NCBI GenBank assembly: GCA_903868545.1
Contig: CAIPVR010000330.1
Location: 1 to 50,638, forward strand
DNA length: 50,638 nt
Source of the DNA: an uncultured Actinomycetes bacterium
GTDB lineage: Bacteria; Actinomycetota; Acidimicrobiia; Acidimicrobiales; Microtrichaceae
Direction: 5' to 3'
Shown here: positions 2,771 to 21,404 of the stretch, in pieces
Numbering within the stretch: the stretch's first letter is position 1
How the letters are laid out: the number at the start of each line of letters is the position of its first letter
The notes under the pieces: model-generated
Databases searched by the model: none
Seen by the model: the letters and a program-made list of their open reading frames with translations, nothing else
Told to the model about the DNA's origin: nothing
Program-made: the position numbers and the translations under genes

Positions 2771-3442
2771 TCAGGCCTGGACGGAGGGGCAGAACGACGC
2801 CAGGACGCACCGCTCGCAGGCCGGCCGACGCGCCGCGCAGACCCGCCGGCCGTGCAGGATCAGCCGCAACGAGAACTCGCCCCGCTCGGCGGCCGGCACC
2901 ATCGGCCCCAGCTCGTGCTCCACCCGTACCGGGTCGTCGTCCTCGGTCAGCCCGAGGCGCTTCGAGAGGCGGAGCACGTGGGTGTCCACCGGCAACCCCG
3001 GGAGGCCGAGCGCCACGCTGCGGACCACGTTGGCGGTCTTGCGCCCCACGCCCGGCAACGACGTGAGGTCGGCCATCGCGCCGGGCACCTCACCGCCGAA
3101 GCGGTCGACGAGGCCGTCGGCCATGCCGATCAGGCTCTTCGCCTTCGAACGGAAGAACCCGGTGGACCGGATGATCTCCTCGAGTTCCTCCGGGTCGGCC
3201 TCGGCCAGGTCCGCCGGCGTGGGGTACCGGGCGAACAGTGCGGGTGTGACCTGGTTGACCCGGGCGTCGGTGCACTGCGCCGACAGGATCGTGGCCGCCA
3301 ACAGCTCGTACGCGTCGCGGTGGTCGAGCTCGCAGTGTGCCTCCGGGTACTCGAGCGCCAGCAGTTCGTGGGTGCGACGGGCCCGGCCCGCCGGCGTCCT
3401 CGGTCGCCGGCGCGCCGGGGTGTGCTCGGACGGTGCGGCCAC
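2771..3442 (-). CDS. nth: Endonuclease III
   Basis: Bifunctional DNA glycosylase/AP lyase of base-excision repair that removes oxidised pyrimidines. The frame stays open far upstream, but the real start is the GTG at 3442 ([10 protein letters not shown]), giving 223 aa. TACCGT sits 6 nt before it. Seen: the helix-hairpin-helix [12 protein letters not shown] with the catalytic Lys, the catalytic Asp in [14 protein letters not shown], and a C-terminal 4Fe-4S cluster motif with exact spacing C-x6-C-x2-C-x5-C ([17 protein letters not shown]). It diverges from the mycothiol synthase-like gene, 25 bp apart. Confidence 0.97.
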
Positions 3443-3448
3443 CGGCGA

Positions 3449-3458
3449 ACGGTAGCCT
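3449..3458. promoter_or_regulatory. Overlapping divergent -10 boxes of nth and mshD
   Basis: The ten bases ACGGTAGCCT read TACCGT on the minus strand (6 nt before the nth GTG) and TAGCCT on the plus strand (9 nt before the mshD GTG). The two hexamers share the central TA, so RNA polymerase could hardly open both at once. Confidence 0.45.
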
Positions 3459-3467
3459 TCACCGCCG

Positions 3468-4136
3468 GTGCCCCCCACCGACGACGTGCCCCCAGCAACC
3501 CGACCCGAGCCGGACCGGCGCGCCGGGTCGCTCCGCTGGGTGTCGCCCCTCGACGACGACAGCGACACCGTGATGGCCGCGGCCGGGCTCCGGCGGGTGC
3601 GCACGCTCGACCAGCTCCGCGTCACGCTCCCCGTGCCCGGCCACGCCGAGCGCCTCGCCGGTGCCGGCCTCGCGGTGCGGGCCCTCCGCCGGGACGCGGA
3701 CGAGACCGGGGTGCTCAGGGTCAACAACCGTGCGTTCCGGTGGCACCCCGACCAGGCCGACTGGGACGGTGACCGCCTCGCCGCTGCGCTCGACGAGGAC
3801 TGGGTGGACCTCGACGGCGTGCTCGTGCACGAGGGACCCGACGGCAGGATCGACGGGTTCTGCTGGACCCGCGTCCACCCGGCCACCGCGACCGAGCCCG
3901 AGCAGGGCGAGATCTTCCTGATCGCGGCCGACCCCGACCTCCACGGCACCGGGCTCGGCCGCTCGCTCGTCCTGGCCGGCCTCGACCACCTCACCGCCCG
4001 GGGGGTGGGTGTGGCGCTGCTCTACGTGGAGGCCGACAACCAGGCCGCCCAGCGGCTCTACCGGCGGCTCGGCTTCACGCGCCACCACTCCGACGGCGGG
4101 TACGCGGCCGGCGCCGCGGCGGCCGGGACGACGTGA
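3468..4136 (+). CDS. mshD: Mycothiol synthase-like GNAT acetyltransferase, N-terminally short
   Basis: MshD transfers acetyl from acetyl-CoA to Cys-GlcN-Ins, the last step of mycothiol synthesis. The 222-aa protein has the MshD signatures [19 protein letters not shown], the acetyl-CoA loop [10 protein letters not shown], and [19 protein letters not shown]. Known MshD proteins are about 300 aa with two GNAT domains. Here only the last 40-50 residues of the first domain remain ([19 protein letters not shown]), and no coding space exists upstream because the nth promoter lies there. It is either a genuinely reduced MshD or a related single-domain acetyltransferase. The stop overlaps the rlmN start (GTGA). 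Confidence 0.8.
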
Positions 4137-8292: not shown

Positions 8293-9246
8293 CTAGCGGA
8301 ACTCCGGCATCACCTTCTCGGCGAGGAGCCGCAGCGTCTCGTGCTCGGGGTAGTCCGCGCACCAGGGCACCACACCGCCACAGCCGAGGTCGCGGTACTG
8401 GGCCAGCTTCTCGCACACCTGCTCGGGGGTGCCGACGAGGTTGCCCTCGCGCCACGACTCGAACGGCTCACCCCAGAAGCTGCGGGTGCCGCCGTCGATG
8501 ATCTCCTGCTCGCTCTCGCGGATGAACACCTCGGGTGACCACGTCTTGGTTATCTCGTCGTAGTCGCGCCCGACGGCCCGGCAGTGCTCCTCGAGCACCT
8601 CGCACTTGTGGGTCCACTCGTGGGGCTTCCCCCCGAAGTTCGACCGGTCGGCGTGGCGGGCCACCACCCGCAGGGTGAGCTGCTCGCCACCGCCGCCGAT
8701 CCACACCGGCGGGCGGGGCGACTGCACGGGCTTCGGGTCGCACTGCGCGCCGTTGACCGAGAAGTGACGGCCCTCGAACGTCGCCTCCCCCTCGGACCAC
8801 ATGCGGGTGACGATCTCCACCGTCTCGCGCAGCATGCGGATGCGGTCGGCCGCGGAGGGGAACTCGTAGCCGTACGCCAGGTACTCCTGCTCGTACCAGC
8901 CGGCGCCGATCCCCCAGTCGAGGCGGCCGTTCGAGATCACGTCGATGGTGGCGGTCATCTTCGCCACCAGGGCCGGGTTCCGGTAGCCCGCGCAACTGAC
9001 CATCTGGCCGAGCCGGATCGTGCTGGTCGCCTGCGCCAGCGCGGCCACGGTGGTCCAGCACTCGAACATCGACTCCTGCGACGGCACCGGCACGTTGTGC
9101 ACGTGGTCGTAGACCCAGATCGAGTCGAAGCCCAGTTCCTCCGCGGCCAGCGCCGTGCCCACCGTGGTCTCCCACTTGGCCCGGTCGCCGGCCACACCGG
9201 CCAGCTCGAGCGTCCATCCCTGCGGGGCGAAGACACCGAAGATCAT
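8293..9246 (-). CDS. LLM-class (F420-type) flavin oxidoreductase
   Basis: Luciferase-like TIM-barrel oxidoreductase of 317 aa. Seen: ELGFDSIWVYDHVHN (the N-terminal strand-helix with conserved Asp-His), IRLGQMVSCAGYRNPALVAK, the family signature ISNGRLDWGIGAGWYEQEY, and RPPVWIGGGGEQLTLRVVARHAD. These match actinobacterial F420-dependent LLM proteins, but FMN use cannot be excluded from sequence. The substrate is unknown. The ATG at 9246 is preceded by TAGGGT with a 6-nt spacing, predicting a leaderless transcript. It diverges from the secreted hydrolase gene, and the two -10 boxes lie 5 bp apart. Confidence 0.93.
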   Translation of the reverse strand: MIFGVFAPQGWTLELAGVAGDRAKWETTVGTALAAEELGFDSIWVYDHVHNVPVPSQESMFECWTTVAALAQATSTIRLGQMVSCAGYRNPALVAKMTATIDVISNGRLDWGIGAGWYEQEYLAYGYEFPSAADRIRMLRETVEIVTRMWSEGEATFEGRHFSVNGAQCDPKPVQSPRPPVWIGGGGEQLTLRVVARHADRSNFGGKPHEWTHKCEVLEEHCRAVGRDYDEITKTWSPEVFIRESEQEIIDGGTRSFWGEPFESWREGNLVGTPEQVCEKLAQYRDLGCGGVVPWCADYPEHETLRLLAEKVMPEFR

Positions 9247-9252
9247 GCCGGG

Positions 9253-9269
9253 ACCCTAGGCCGTACGCT
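9253..9269. promoter_or_regulatory. Divergent -10 boxes of LLM oxidoreductase and TAP hydrolase
   Basis: The minus-strand TAGGGT (9258-9253) lies 6 nt before the ATG at 9246. The plus-strand TACGCT (9264-9269) lies 8 nt before the GTG at 9278. The boxes are separated by 5 bp, so the promoters overlap face to face. Confidence 0.45.
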
Positions 9270-9277
9270 GACCCGCC

Positions 9278-10882
9278 GTGCCACGGATCCGAGCGCCCCG
9301 ACGAGGCCGACACCGCTGCCGGGCCCTCGCCACCGGGCTGCTCGTGACCGCCACGGCCGCGACGGCCACCGGCGGCTGCACCGACGGCGGAGCGGACGCC
9401 GGGCACACGTCGCGGGAACGCCCGGCGAGCACGACGACGGCCGCGCCCACCAGCACCCCGACCACCGCCCCGACCACCGCCCCGACCACCGCCCCGACCA
9501 CCACCCCGGTCACGCCCTCGGCCAGTGGCTTCCCGGCGGGCTGGCGACCCGCGCCGCTGACGTGGCGCGACTGCGCCCTCGACGGGAACCCGGACCTCCA
9601 GTGCGCCACGCTCACGGTGCCCCTCGACTGGTCGCGACCCGACGGATCCACCGTCGAGCTCGCCCTCGGTCGCATCCCCGCCTCGGGGGACCCGGAGGGT
9701 TCCGTGGTCACCAACCCCGGCGGGCCGGGCGCGTCGGGCCTCGACTTCCTCGCCGACGAACCGCTGGGCCCGGGCATCACCGAGCGGTTCGACACGGTGA
9801 GCTGGGACCCGCGCGGCGTGGGCAGTTCCACCGCGGTGACCTGCAGCGACGGGGTCGCCCGCTTCCTGGAACTCGACGCGGACCCCGACACCCCGGACGA
9901 GCAGGCCGGGCTCGACGCTGCGGCACGGCGGGTGTCGAGCGCCTGCGAGGCCGCCGACGGGCCCCTCCTCCCCCACCTCGGCACGGCCGAGGTGGCCCGC
10001 GACCTCGAGGCCATCCGGCGCGCCCTCGACCAGGGTCCCCTCAACTTCGTGGGCTTCAGCTACGGCACGCAGATCGGCCAGCAGTACGCCGCCTTCTTCC
10101 CCGCCGAGATCCGCACGATGGTCCTCGACGGCGTGGTCGACCCCGCCCTCGGCTACACCGAGTTCCTCCTGGGCCAGGCCCGGGCCTTCGAGGCCGCGTT
10201 CGACGCCAACGCCGTCCGCTGCCGTGAGGCCGGCCGGCGCCGCTGTGGCGTCGACGACCTCGGCGCCGCCTACGACCGGGTGAAGGCGACGGCCGAGGGC
10301 GCGCCGATCCCGGCCGGGCGGGCCCGGCTCAGCCCCTCCGAGGTGGCGGTCGCCGCCACCTACGTCGCCTACCTCGACGACGGCTGGGAGGAGCTCGGCC
10401 CCGCCCTCGCCGCCGCGGAACGGGGTGACGGACGCAGGATGGTCGAACTCGCGAACAGCTACTACGACTTCGGCGGCTTCGGTTCCTACGCCGCCGTCGT
10501 GTGCACCGACACGCCGCCGCCCCGGGGCGAGGAGGCCTACCGGGCCTTCGCCGACGAGGCCCGCCGCGTGGCCCCCCGCTTCGGGGGGTCGGTGGCCAAC
10601 GAGCTACTGGTCTGCGCGACCTGGCCCGCGGCGCCCGTCGGCACACCCGCACCGGTGGTGGCACAGGGCGCGCCCCCGATCCTGGTGGTGGGCAACACCG
10701 GCGACCCCGCCACGCCGTACCCGAACGCGGTGGCCGTGGCCGACCGGCTCGCCTCCGGGGTGCTCGTCACCGCCGAGCGGGGCGGTCACACCGCCTACGG
10801 CGCCGACCGCTGCGTGACCCGGATCGTCGACCGGTACGTGACCGAGCTGCGGGTGCCCCCCGACGGCACGGTCTGCCGCTGA
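9278..10882 (+). CDS. Secreted alpha/beta hydrolase, TAP-type peptidase family
   Basis: Exported alpha/beta hydrolase of 534 aa, related to tripeptidyl aminopeptidases (SlpD/E type, TAP-like C-terminal domain). The basic N-terminus (RAPRRGRHRCR) and hydrophobic stretch ATGLLVTATAATATGGC look like a signal peptide, possibly a lipoprotein at Cys34, although the lipobox is weak. A Pro/Thr linker with PTTA repeats follows (residues 50-80). Catalytic parts: NPGGPG oxyanion loop, GFSYGTQ with Ser261, Asp in GNTGDPATPY and His in RGGHTAYG. It is likely tethered outside the membrane and cleaves peptides or small esters. It diverges from the LLM oxidoreductase. Confidence 0.93.
   Translation: MPRIRAPRRGRHRCRALATGLLVTATAATATGGCTDGGADAGHTSRERPASTTTAAPTSTPTTAPTTAPTTAPTTTPVTPSASGFPAGWRPAPLTWRDCALDGNPDLQCATLTVPLDWSRPDGSTVELALGRIPASGDPEGSVVTNPGGPGASGLDFLADEPLGPGITERFDTVSWDPRGVGSSTAVTCSDGVARFLELDADPDTPDEQAGLDAAARRVSSACEAADGPLLPHLGTAEVARDLEAIRRALDQGPLNFVGFSYGTQIGQQYAAFFPAEIRTMVLDGVVDPALGYTEFLLGQARAFEAAFDANAVRCREAGRRRCGVDDLGAAYDRVKATAEGAPIPAGRARLSPSEVAVAATYVAYLDDGWEELGPALAAAERGDGRRMVELANSYYDFGGFGSYAAVVCTDTPPPRGEEAYRAFADEARRVAPRFGGSVANELLVCATWPAAPVGTPAPVVAQGAPPILVVGNTGDPATPYPNAVAVADRLASGVLVTAERGGHTAYGADRCVTRIVDRYVTELRVPPDGTVCR
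9458..9508 (+). repeat. 12-bp coding tandem repeat (Pro-Thr-Thr-Ala linker)
   Basis: About four copies of a 12-bp unit, CCGACCACCGCC and close variants, encode PTTA-PTTA-PTTA-PTTT. This is a flexible wall-spanning or O-glycosylation-type linker after the signal sequence. Copy number may vary between strains. Confidence 0.85.
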
Positions 10883-16200: not shown

Positions 16201-18009
16201 TCACCCGCCACGGTAGCGCCCGGCCGCAAGGGCGCCACCGGCCGCATCGTTCAGCTCCCGGTGCACCGCCACGTTGACGTCGCGGTCCGAGTCCACCACC
16301 ACCACTCGCACACCACCGCGCGTGAGCGCACCGGCGAGCGCGGCCTGCACGCCTGCCCGGCTCGAGACCCGTTCCGCGGGCAGACCGTGTGCGGCGGCCA
16401 CCGCCACCAGGTCGGTGCCGTGCGGTGTACCGAAGAGCTGCTCGAACCGCTCGGAGGGCAGCCGGTCCCGCTGCGGGAGGAACGAGAAGATCCCGCCGCC
16501 GTCGTTGTCGACCACCACCACCACCAGGTCGGCGCGACGCCGGGCCAGGCCCACCAGCGCTCCCACGTCGTGGAGGAACGCGAGGTCACCGACCAACAGA
16601 GCGGTCGGCACACCGGAGAGGGCCACCCCCACCGCCGTGGAGGTCACGCCGTCGATCCCGTTCGCACCACGGTTGGACAGGACCCGCACGCCGTCCCGGG
16701 GCCGGGCGAACCACTCCAGGTCGCGCACCGGCATCGACGACGACACCACCAGCGTGGCGTCCTTCGCCAGGCTGGCGAGGAGGTCGACGGCCACTGCGGG
16801 CTCGGTGGCCGCGGTGTGCGCGGCCAGGGTGGCCGACACCGCGGCGGCACTGACCCGCTCGGCCTCCGCCCATCCCTCGGCCCACCCGGCCGGGGCCGGG
16901 GCGGGCGCCACGGCGGCGAGTCGACGGCACAGCTCCACCGGGTCCGCGTGCAGGCTGCGGGCCAGCACCCGCTGCGGATCCGGGACCCGGTCGGCACGGT
17001 CCACCCCCACCTGCAACGCACCGGAGCCGGCCAGGAACCCGTCGAGCACCTTCGACGCCGGCGCACCGCCGAGCCGGAGGACGACCTCGGGGCGGAGGGA
17101 CTCGGCGGTCGGTCCGTGGCGCAGCAGGACGTCGAAGCCGGCCACCACCAGCGGATCGGGCACCCGGCAGCCCGAGGGCGCGTCCGCGAGCACCGGCCAG
17201 CCCAGCTGCCGGGCGAGGCCGATCACGGCGTCACGCTCGGCCGCGGCCCCGGCCGCGTGCGCGTCGTCGGACCGCACCGTGCGCACGCCGGCCACCACGA
17301 TGCCGCGCCGACCGGCGATCGCTCCGGCCAGGCGCGCCAACTCCTCGTCGGGAAGGGCCCAGCCCGCCCCTGGACGCGCCGGCGGCAGGGCGTCGCCGGC
17401 GGGCGGCAACTCGCCGACCTCCCCCACGAGCGGCTCACGGAACGCCAGGTCGAGATGCACCGGCCCCGGGACCGCGCCCAGCGTGCGGGTCCACGCGTCA
17501 CGCGCCAGGTCGCGCCACCACGGCGCACCCTCCACCGATGGCGGCCCCGGTTCGCAGTACCAGCGCACCGAACCGCCGTAGAGCTCGCGCTGGTCGATCG
17601 TCTGCGGCGCCCACACCCCCTGCAGCTCCGGCGGCCGGTCGGCGGTCACCACGAGCATCGGGACCGCGGCCTGGTGGGCCTCCACCACGGCCGCGTGGAA
17701 CTCCGCCGCCGCCGTCCCGCTGGTGCAGAGCAGCAGTGCGGGTCGGCCGGTCGCGAGCCCCAGCCCGAGGGCGGTGAACGCGGCCGAGCGCTCGTCGAGC
17801 ACCACGTGGGTGACCACGCGCTCGTCCGAGGCGAGCGCCACCGCCACCGGCGTGGAGCGGGAGCCGGGCGCGACCACGGCGTGCCGCAGTCCGCAGCGAA
17901 CCCACTCGTCCACGAGCGTGGCGCAGCACGTGGCGTTGACGTCGCCCACGGACGGGCCGGCCGGGGCCGGCTCGTCCGTGGGCGGGGGGACGGCGGGATG
18001 GTCGGTCAT
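16201..18009 (-). CDS. menD: SEPHCHC synthase
   Basis: Thiamine-diphosphate enzyme that joins isochorismate and 2-oxoglutarate to give SEPHCHC, the second step of menaquinone synthesis. The 602-aa protein starts MTDHPAVPPP at the ATG at 18009. Seen: VAPGSRSTPVAVAL and VLDERSAAFTALGLGLATGR (N-terminal domain with the ThDP Glu), CTSGTAAAEFHAAVVEA, and VTADRPPELQGV. The C-terminal ThDP/Mg motif runs from LLVGDLAFLHDVGAL to VVDNDGGGIFSFLPQ. Length is typical. It diverges from menH with 26 bp between the start codons. Confidence 0.96.
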   Translation of the reverse strand: MTDHPAVPPPTDEPAPAGPSVGDVNATCCATLVDEWVRCGLRHAVVAPGSRSTPVAVALASDERVVTHVVLDERSAAFTALGLGLATGRPALLLCTSGTAAAEFHAAVVEAHQAAVPMLVVTADRPPELQGVWAPQTIDQRELYGGSVRWYCEPGPPSVEGAPWWRDLARDAWTRTLGAVPGPVHLDLAFREPLVGEVGELPPAGDALPPARPGAGWALPDEELARLAGAIAGRRGIVVAGVRTVRSDDAHAAGAAAERDAVIGLARQLGWPVLADAPSGCRVPDPLVVAGFDVLLRHGPTAESLRPEVVLRLGGAPASKVLDGFLAGSGALQVGVDRADRVPDPQRVLARSLHADPVELCRRLAAVAPAPAPAGWAEGWAEAERVSAAAVSATLAAHTAATEPAVAVDLLASLAKDATLVVSSSMPVRDLEWFARPRDGVRVLSNRGANGIDGVTSTAVGVALSGVPTALLVGDLAFLHDVGALVGLARRRADLVVVVVDNDGGGIFSFLPQRDRLPSERFEQLFGTPHGTDLVAVAAAHGLPAERVSSRAGVQAALAGALTRGGVRVVVVDSDRDVNVAVHRELNDAAGGALAAGRYRGG

Positions 18010-18019
18010 GAGCCGGGCA

Positions 18020-18029
18020 AGCCTACGGT
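18020..18029. promoter_or_regulatory. Overlapping divergent -10 boxes of menD and menH
   Basis: AGCCTACGGT reads TAGGCT on the minus strand (10 nt before the menD ATG) and TACGGT on the plus strand (6 nt before the menH GTG). The hexamers share the central TA, so one short element could set the balance between two enzymes of the same pathway. Confidence 0.5.
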
Positions 18030-18035
18030 GGGACG

Positions 18036-18875
18036 GTGCCCCGACGGCCATCCGACCCCTCCGCCGCGCCGCCCGAACTCCTCGCCGCCCGTGTGACGGG
18101 CCCCACCGGCGTGACCCCGGCCACCTCCGCCGTGTCGGTCGCCGCACCGGTGGTCTTCCTCCACGGCTTCGCCCAGAACGGCGCGTGCGGCGGCCCGCTG
18201 GTGGACGCCCTCGCCGCCGACCGCCCGGTACTGCTCCCCGACCTGCCCGGCCACGGCGACCCTCCTCGGCACCCGACCGCGGACCTGCCGCGAGCGGCGG
18301 CGCTCGTGGACGACACCGCGCTCGACGCGTTCGGCCCACGGCCGGTCGACGTGGTGGGCTACTCGATGGGCGGCCGCGTCGCCCTCGTGTGGGCCACCTC
18401 CCGCCCCGGGCGGGTGCGACGCATGGTGCTGGTGGGCGCGACGGCCGGCCTCGCCACCGGGGCGGAGCGGACCGAGCGCCGGGCCGCCGACGAGCAGCTC
18501 GCCCGCCGCCTCGAGGAGGAGGGCGTGGCCGCGTTCCTCGACCACTGGCTGGCCCTGCCGCTGTTCGCCGGGCTCCCCGACGGCGCCCGCTTCGAGGTGG
18601 AGCGCCGTCGGAACACCGCGGCCGGCCTCGCTGCGTCGTTGCGCCACTGCGGCACCGGCACCATGGACCCGCTCTGGGAGCATCTGGGCGGACTGTGCCC
18701 CACGCTCTTCCTCGCCGGAGCCGACGACACCCGGTTCGTCCACCTCGCCCGCCGGATGGCCGACGCCGTCGGGCCCGGGGCGGCGGCGGCAACGGTGCCC
18801 GGCGCCGGCCATGCCGCCCACCTCGAACGCCCCGACGAGGTGGCCGCCCTGGTGCGGGCGCACCTCACAGCGTGA
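18036..18875 (+). CDS. menH: SHCHC synthase-like alpha/beta hydrolase
   Basis: MenH removes pyruvate from SEPHCHC, the step directly after MenD. The 279-aa protein has the alpha/beta hydrolase set FLHGFAQNG (oxyanion), LLPDLPGHGDPPRHP, the nucleophile motif VDVVGYSMGGRVALVWA, Asp in LAGADDTRF and His in GAGHAAHLE. These patterns and its position opposite menD make MenH the best call, although motif evidence alone does not exclude another hydrolase. Its 3' end overlaps menA by 11 bp on the opposite strand. Confidence 0.85.
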   Translation: MPRRPSDPSAAPPELLAARVTGPTGVTPATSAVSVAAPVVFLHGFAQNGACGGPLVDALAADRPVLLPDLPGHGDPPRHPTADLPRAAALVDDTALDAFGPRPVDVVGYSMGGRVALVWATSRPGRVRRMVLVGATAGLATGAERTERRAADEQLARRLEEEGVAAFLDHWLALPLFAGLPDGARFEVERRRNTAAGLAASLRHCGTGTMDPLWEHLGGLCPTLFLAGADDTRFVHLARRMADAVGPGAAAATVPGAGHAAHLERPDEVAALVRAHLTA

Positions 18876-20259: not shown

Positions 20260-21360
20260 TCACCGCGGCACCGAACGGTGGAGACGCCACAGCGTGCGCA
20301 GCACGCGTCGTCGCTGCGGCACCACCCGGTCCGAGGACCACGGCGCAGGGGGCGGCTCCACCACCGAGCACAGCCCCAGGAGTGGGCCGTCGTAGTTCAC
20401 GCGCCACCCCGACCAGTCCCGCCACGCGGCCTCGCGGTCGGCGACGAGCGGCACCCCTGCGGCCTCGAGCTCGGCGAGGCACGCGTCGAACTCGGCGCGC
20501 GTCACCGACACGGGGTCACCGGGGGACGGATCCGGGTCGTAGGGGATGAGGAACTGGTCGGCCACCTCCCGGAGGCACAGGAACCCCGCCCGGATCGCCA
20601 GGGCGGTGGACGGCAGCCTCGGCACGTCCACCGCACTCTGGAGCATGGCGGCACTGTCGAGGAGCGCCCCGGCCGACGTGAGCCATGACCGGCCCTCACC
20701 CGAGCGGAAGTACACCAGCGAGGGGTAGGACGTGTGGGTCTCCTCGACCTCGGAGAACCAGTCCTCCCACTCGGCCCACGTGTCGGACAGGTCCTCGAGA
20801 CCCCGGATCCGCTGCTGACGGATCAGGAACGTCGCCACCGCCGGCGGCTCGCCGGCCCGGCTGGCCATCTGCGCCACCAGCACCTCGCGACGTGAGAACG
20901 CCGAGTAGATGGTCGGCAGGAAGGAGATGAGCAGCCCGACGAGGCCCAGGCCGATGAGCGCCTCCAGCACCTCGGCCAGGCGGGCCGGCGAGGGCTCGGC
21001 CGACACGAACCCGAGGGTGGTGAGGCTGGAGCCGCTCACCTGCAGCGCCTCGAGCCACGAGAGGTCGCCGATCGACCAGTACACGGGGGTGAATCCGATG
21101 ATGACCAGGACGGCCCAGGCGCCGGCCAGGAGGACGAGTGCGACGGGGGCGTACTGGCCGAGCAGGCGCTCGCGGCGCGCCGCCGACGCGAACCGGAGCC
21201 GGAGGTCGAGCGAGCGGCGCACGGCGAGGAACACCGCTGCGGTGAGCAACGGCCGCTGGCCACGGGGCACCACCACCGTGCGCACGGCGGAGAGGAGCAC
21301 CGCCACCACGAGCCACAGCCCGACGAGGGGCAGGAGCACCTCGGCCAGTGCGCCGCTCAC
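20260..21360 (-). CDS. Two-pore-helix ion channel-like membrane protein
   Basis: A 366-aa protein starting VSGALAEVLL at the GTG at 21360. It has an N-terminal membrane helix (LLPLVGLWLVVAVLLSAVRT), a second around VALVLLAGAWAVLVIIGF, a pore-loop-like stretch LQVSGSSLTTLGFVSAEP resembling the TxxTxGF filter region of K+ channels, and a third helix (LEALIGLGLVGLLISFLPTI). The remaining ~220 aa are soluble. The filter lacks a canonical TVGYG, so ion selectivity is uncertain. The start overlaps the stop of a possible 9-codon leader ORF. Confidence 0.7.
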   Translation of the reverse strand: MSGALAEVLLPLVGLWLVVAVLLSAVRTVVVPRGQRPLLTAAVFLAVRRSLDLRLRFASAARRERLLGQYAPVALVLLAGAWAVLVIIGFTPVYWSIGDLSWLEALQVSGSSLTTLGFVSAEPSPARLAEVLEALIGLGLVGLLISFLPTIYSAFSRREVLVAQMASRAGEPPAVATFLIRQQRIRGLEDLSDTWAEWEDWFSEVEETHTSYPSLVYFRSGEGRSWLTSAGALLDSAAMLQSAVDVPRLPSTALAIRAGFLCLREVADQFLIPYDPDPSPGDPVSVTRAEFDACLAELEAAGVPLVADREAAWRDWSGWRVNYDGPLLGLCSVVEPPPAPWSSDRVVPQRRRVLRTLWRLHRSVPR

Positions 21361-21394: not shown

Positions 21395-21404
21395 ACGCTA
21401 CCGT
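21395..21404. promoter_or_regulatory. Overlapping divergent -10 boxes of channel gene and menE
   Basis: ACGCTACCGT reads TAGCGT on the minus strand and TACCGT on the plus strand, sharing the central TA. This is the same design as at menD/menH and nth/mshD. Confidence 0.45.

Follow-up and report, generated by a model that had tools for sequence, protein, structure and literature searches.

Introduction

Bidirectional promoters, in which one −10 region is used on two DNA strands, have been described in Escherichia coli and Salmonella by Warman, Grainger and colleagues; their shared −10 elements are symmetric and often lie between divergent genes (PMC12825309, PMC10268837). The two start sites are commonly separated by 18, 10, or 23 bp (PMC12825309), with 18 bp the usual distance (PMC10268837). 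Simultaneous use of both directions is sterically excluded, one binding event blocking the other. In a test of five E. coli bidirectional promoters, the basal activity of every one was too low for RNA polymerases to compete, and one direction was repressed only upon strong activation of the opposite one (PMC12825309). With start sites placed 7 bp past each hexamer, back-to-back boxes of the form TANNNTA (offset −1) yield a separation of 18 bp and those of the form ANNNTANNNT (offset +4) one of 23 bp. Leaderless promoters with a TANNNT hexamer are known in Actinobacteria, M. tuberculosis among them.

A first-pass annotation of a 50,638-nt stretch of DNA from an uncultured member of the Microtrichaceae (the whole stretch is hereafter called the window) had proposed that menD and menH diverge from two −10 boxes sharing one TA. 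By its geometry this element is very probably an instance of the bidirectional-promoter class already described in E. coli. Our search of open-licence papers returned no earlier description of the menD/menH element itself. It resembles the E. coli and Salmonella cases in having one −10 region for two strands between divergent genes, where one binding event would block the other. Unlike those cases, the menD and menH transcripts are predicted to be leaderless or nearly so, such that promoter sequence would fill the entire 26-bp gap, the hexamers read TAnnnT and have interiors of mostly G and C, and the start sites are predicted from sequence alone. Like the leaderless promoters of Actinobacteria, it places TANNNT a few bases before the GTG or ATG that would be the first mRNA codon; unlike them, two such promoters are fused here through a common TA.

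Results

Two predicted −10 hexamers in the menD/menH gap

menD and menH are divergent with a gap of 26 bp, the middle of which is occupied by AGCCTACGGT. The G+C content of the window is 69–76%.

18020–18029, both strands: shared element AGCCTACGGT (pattern ANNNTANNNT), two back-to-back −10 hexamers with the central TA in common
18024–18029, + strand: menH −10 hexamer TACGGT, 6 nt from the GTG start, the distance at which the genome-wide distribution peaks
18025–18020, − strand: menD −10 hexamer TAGGCT, 10 nt from the ATG at 18009
18036–18875, + strand: menH, start GTG at 18036, best NCBIfam match TIGR03695
16201–18009, − strand: menD (TIGR00173), start ATG at 18009

The score of menH against TIGR03695 (189.8 bits) is just below the cutoff of 208.55. 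All start codons are predicted and gene-caller starts are approximate; those of nth and menH were misplaced by the caller and were read by eye. The two −10 elements lie on opposite strands with bases in common, as in bidirectional promoters of the 23-bp class; such promoters further have start sites on opposite strands 7–25 bp apart and are transcribed both ways from the shared element. On the menH side TANNNT lies 6 nt ahead of the start codon, within the 6–9 nt expected of a leaderless actinobacterial promoter. On the menD side, the window and many family relatives have a spacing of 10 nt, and other relatives one of 6–9 nt. Since few divergent-side starts of this genome have a 10-nt spacing (2 for 344), it is possible that menD is not strictly leaderless. 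The menH mRNA is predicted to start at the G of the GTG at 18036, and the menD mRNA either near 18013, which would give it a leader of about 4 nt, or directly at its ATG. From the box positions, the predicted start sites of the two genes are 23 bp apart.

Placement and spacing across the genome

The genome of the window comprises 3.69 Mb on 335 contigs, of which about 1.31 Mb (35%), window included, was analysed; a codon-based script called 1166 genes and 172 divergent pairs in this portion. TANNNT hexamers that end 6, 7, 8, and 9 nt before a called start numbered 45, 17, 22, and 7 for 344 divergent-side genes (sum 91) and 38, 10, 10, and 6 for 409 tandem genes (sum 64), with control hexamers found 0–1 times per distance and forming no peak. 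This peak at 6–9 nt is the expected signature of leaderless promoters. The pattern ANNNTANNNT occurred 36 times in the 1.31 Mb, and 16 of these sites fell in divergent gaps, which hold 2.0% of the bases; the others were in tandem gaps (n = 9), at contig edges (n = 6), and in coding sequence (n = 5, in 88% of the bases). Rearranged control patterns fell in divergent gaps in 6/159, 9/94, 2/38, and 17/163 cases, and TANNNTA did so at 10 of its 14 sites.

Back-to-back boxes in divergent gaps peaked only at offsets +4 (n = 16) and −1 (n = 10), with at most four at each remaining offset from −30 to 60. A stricter set, in which both starts were 6–10 nt away and both genes had open frames of 60 codons, comprised 20 pairs with offsets from −6 to 60; seven were at +4, no other offset held more than two, and control hexamers gave 0–1 at +4. 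Besides menD/menH and nth/mshD, the pairs at +4 were aminotransferase/amidohydrolase, E1-E2 ATPase/VIT-family, phosphofructokinase/FGGY-kinase, uracil-DNA-glycosylase-like/histidine-phosphatase, and a CbiX gene with a second gene. The fourth base upstream of a leaderless −10 hexamer was A in 11 of the 93 cases on the divergent side and in 4 of the 65 among tandem genes. With so mild an excess of A at divergent genes, sharing itself need not be under selection.

Two further groups of sites were seen in several genomes. The shared element ATCCTATGCT / AGCATAGGAT, which in the genome of the window lies between the uracil-DNA-glycosylase-like and histidine-phosphatase genes, is present in three genomes (L254:2680-2689, G004:C1:1466588, and G005:C255:8390). 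A start-flanked shared −10 site lies over an inverted repeat at G000:C105:7214-7244, G004:C1:4121547-4121577, and G002:C427:2916-2947; the repeat is CACTAC/GTAGTG in two of the three and may be a regulator box.

Abundance of the exact 10-mer was considered as evidence and rejected, as its four copies in the whole genome equal the number for the reversed control; only position counts. The 10-mer is rare, with 65 copies over 33 family genomes, no more than the reversed control. Comparison of its places with those of menH located it close upstream of menH in 14 of these genomes (G000, G004, G005, G012, G013, G015, G016, G024, G026, G027, G028, G029, G030, and G031), and it also precedes menH in G067, a genome from a different family. 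The start-flanked pattern was counted 517 times in the 33 family genomes against 941 for the reversed control (summed by hand) and exceeded the control in 10 of the 33, with 22 against 7 in the genome of the window. Many genomes in a phylum sample had no excess of this pattern over the control. The pattern counts in family and phylum are thus mixed and of limited use.

Other shared sites in the window

With three sites against a shuffle mean of 6.0, ANNNTANNNT is not enriched in number in the window, and all three sites sit between divergent genes. The layout thus recurs at both further places named by the first-pass annotation.

3449–3458, both strands: second shared element ACGGTAGCCT in the nth/mshD gap; the GTG start of nth is 6 nt away, that of mshD 9 nt
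2771–3442, − strand: nth (TIGR01083), GTG start 6 nt from TACCGT
3468–4136, + strand: mshD (TIGR03448), GTG start 9 nt from TAGCCT
21395–21404, both strands: third shared element ACGCTACCGT, between a gene at 20260–21360 (− strand, family unassigned by Pfam) and menE (21461, + strand)

The nth/mshD-type element keeps its form ahead of mshD in L113, L120, and L121 and adjoins mshD in G002, G004, and G006. At the third site, ACGCTACCGT is 34 nt from one called start and 56 nt from the other, so the two genes beside it would have leaders. The third pair had been named channel/menE; the site and menE were both recovered, while the name "channel" found no confirmation, as the gene at 20260–21360 has no Pfam match at E ≤ 1e-5. 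ANNNTANNNT is also present upstream of menE in L114, L115, and L116, three of the eight f1 loci having menE. A search of the examined loci of relatives at E ≤ 1e-20 did not recover the partner gene, and the site at 21395–21404 is therefore backed only on its menE side.

Elsewhere in the window, the two −10 boxes of a close divergent pair at 9246–9278 (8293–9246 on the − strand, 9278 or 9344 on the + strand) are separated by about 11 bp. These boxes have no common bases, and their interiors differ among relatives.

Conservation among relatives

Conservation in relatives had been set beforehand as the test by which the reading could fail. Thirty-three family genomes and 80 named loci gave 98 distinct rows, window included; the loci with the nearest menD proteins came mostly from metagenome assemblies labelled Actinomycetota, Acidimicrobiia, Acidimicrobiales, or Microthrixaceae. 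Five rows were without one of the genes and one had both on the same strand; in 30 the aligned cores were more than 400 bp apart, and the remaining 62 rows were directly divergent. The element A[GC]CCTA[CT]G[GT]T is kept in 32 of these 62 loci, with varying flanks: in 25 it is shared with both starts 5–11 nt away, in two (L091, L099) it is present with the menD start farther away, and in five (L146, L148, L161, L172, L178) it is retained alongside a separate TACGCT for menH, about 28 bp further on. The remaining loci have separate boxes (n = 4; L085, L136, L139, L173), were grouped as fully overlapped CACCATC (n = 4; L122, L124, L145, L187, of which L122 was placed by eye as the script gave no start pair), or have some other or unresolved arrangement (n = 22).

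In an alignment of 26 rows, from which the near-copies L100–L103, L148, and L178 were left out, seven of the ten element columns are invariant and the other three are identical in 22–24 rows; the ten columns carry 1.4–2.0 bits, against 0.04–0.9 bits in the flanks. In a menD tree built with FastTree from 97 rows, those bearing the element fall into two deep parts that are separate from each other. The proposed pair of back-to-back boxes with one common TA is supported by the element at 18020–18029, its 6- and 10-nt spacings, and its retention in relatives.

Extra sequence separates menD and menH in some rows. In L135 the intervening gene (9307–10050, − strand) appears to encode a DsbA-like protein, judged by eye from a CPWC motif, runs in the same direction as menH, and overlaps the menH start by four bases. 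In another row with an insert, the menD side has a ANNNTANNNT element, AACCTATCGT, at L144:2259-2268 with starts 7 nt away in both directions, and menD may there share a promoter with the inserted gene in place of menH.

Natural variants and interior bases

In L094 (AGCCTA-CGAC-TACGGT) and L085 (AGCCTA-CGAC-TACGTT), six extra bases give each gene its own TA, with both hexamers and both starts retained. The menH-side T is lost and the menD-side box retained in L092, L096, L109, L136, L139, and L173; all six have another TANNNT 6–8 nt before an in-frame menH start, the paired call being weak or absent in L096 and L109. Such splits and losses are what two functional −10 boxes, and not a single operator, would be expected to show. 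That the ten bases are a regulator operator whose likeness to two −10 boxes is incidental is scarcely credible: the conservation of interior N bases beyond the needs of TANNNT and the retention of the 10-mer in the five loci where menH has another −10 would suit an operator, but both starts lie at the 6–10 nt spacing, the unit does not stay intact in L094 and L085, the menH-side T alone is lost in six rows, and other gene pairs carry different 10-mers of the same frame.

In L112–L121 the interior bases are identical to those of the window at 28 of 30 menD and 26 of 30 menH positions (54/60), and at five unshared leaderless promoters (8293, 9344, 13268, 18865, 25516) in 12 f1 loci they match at 66 of 114; these counts were recounted from the listing and are descriptive, as the rows are related and non-independent. 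A test on interior bases gave 57/69 against 77/126 (p = 0.002) for sets that mix shared and unshared sites, with unshared men rows included and nth/mshD rows among the controls. Upstream of leaderless boxes, at −15 to −13, the genome prefers C, G, and G.

Discussion

The ten bases are very probably a minimal bidirectional promoter of the 23-bp class, read by the housekeeping sigma factor. RNA polymerase would bind in one orientation or the other; base pairs 18024–18025 would serve as the −12/−11 pairs of both promoters, so a single complex could form at a time. One orientation would produce a leaderless menH mRNA and the other a menD mRNA with a leader of 0–4 nt. The N bases would be used twice, −10 to −8 of one promoter being −15 to −13 of the other; such dual roles could account for the retention of all ten bases of the element, in contrast to the drift inside ordinary −10 hexamers. 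At basal activity two mostly independent weak promoters are expected, with competition only under strong activation of one direction.

How such sharing arose is probably a matter of chance followed by constraint, an account of origin that is compatible with the bidirectional promoter. Where a genome is rich in G+C, a single A placed four bases before an existing TANNNT would create a second promoter, and shared boxes would thus arise by chance between divergent genes about 26 bp apart; once present, they would be difficult to alter, since two genes are affected by every change. Sharing requires four fixed bases instead of six, the A at this position is near background, offsets +4 and −1, the two geometries with four fixed bases, are the most frequent, and relatives have escaped through splits or replacement, all of which suits this origin; on its own, however, it does not explain why the adjacency of menD and menH is so widely retained.

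The first-pass annotation had further argued that the two promoters cannot be melted at the same time and that the site might force alternation or a fixed MenD:MenH ratio. The first part is upheld by analogy: steric exclusion of simultaneous use is likely, as stated for bidirectional promoters in PMC12825309, and such exclusion does not need a shared TA. Mutual exclusion is therefore accepted here; alternation and a fixed ratio are not supported, because the same paper reports little competition among basal bidirectional promoters in E. coli and repression upon strong activation (PMC12825309). The expected exclusion, the two successive enzymes, and the deep conservation would agree with a site that exists for such forcing, yet we regard this purpose as very improbable. 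Relatives split or separate the promoters, with boxes 6 bp split (L094, L085), boxes about 28 bp apart, or genes set apart by an inserted stretch (30 of 97 rows), so the pathway does not require coupling, and the same layout occurs in pairs without an obvious functional link, for example aminotransferase/amidohydrolase and uracil-DNA-glycosylase-like/histidine phosphatase.

Few bacteria have so far been examined for bidirectional promoters. The probable bidirectional promoter of menD and menH shows how a 26-bp gap can hold two promoters when the mRNAs are without leaders, and its relatives form a natural series: a shared TA, a 6-bp split, boxes about 28 bp apart, an overlapped 18-bp-type CACCATC (L124, L145, L187), and an inserted gene. 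This series makes it directly testable whether −10 sharing matters for expression. More tentatively, Acidimicrobiia may carry a set of ancient double-leaderless promoters (menD/menH, nth/mshD, and others), in which the double use of bases would lock the gene pair and its relative promoter strengths for a very long time.
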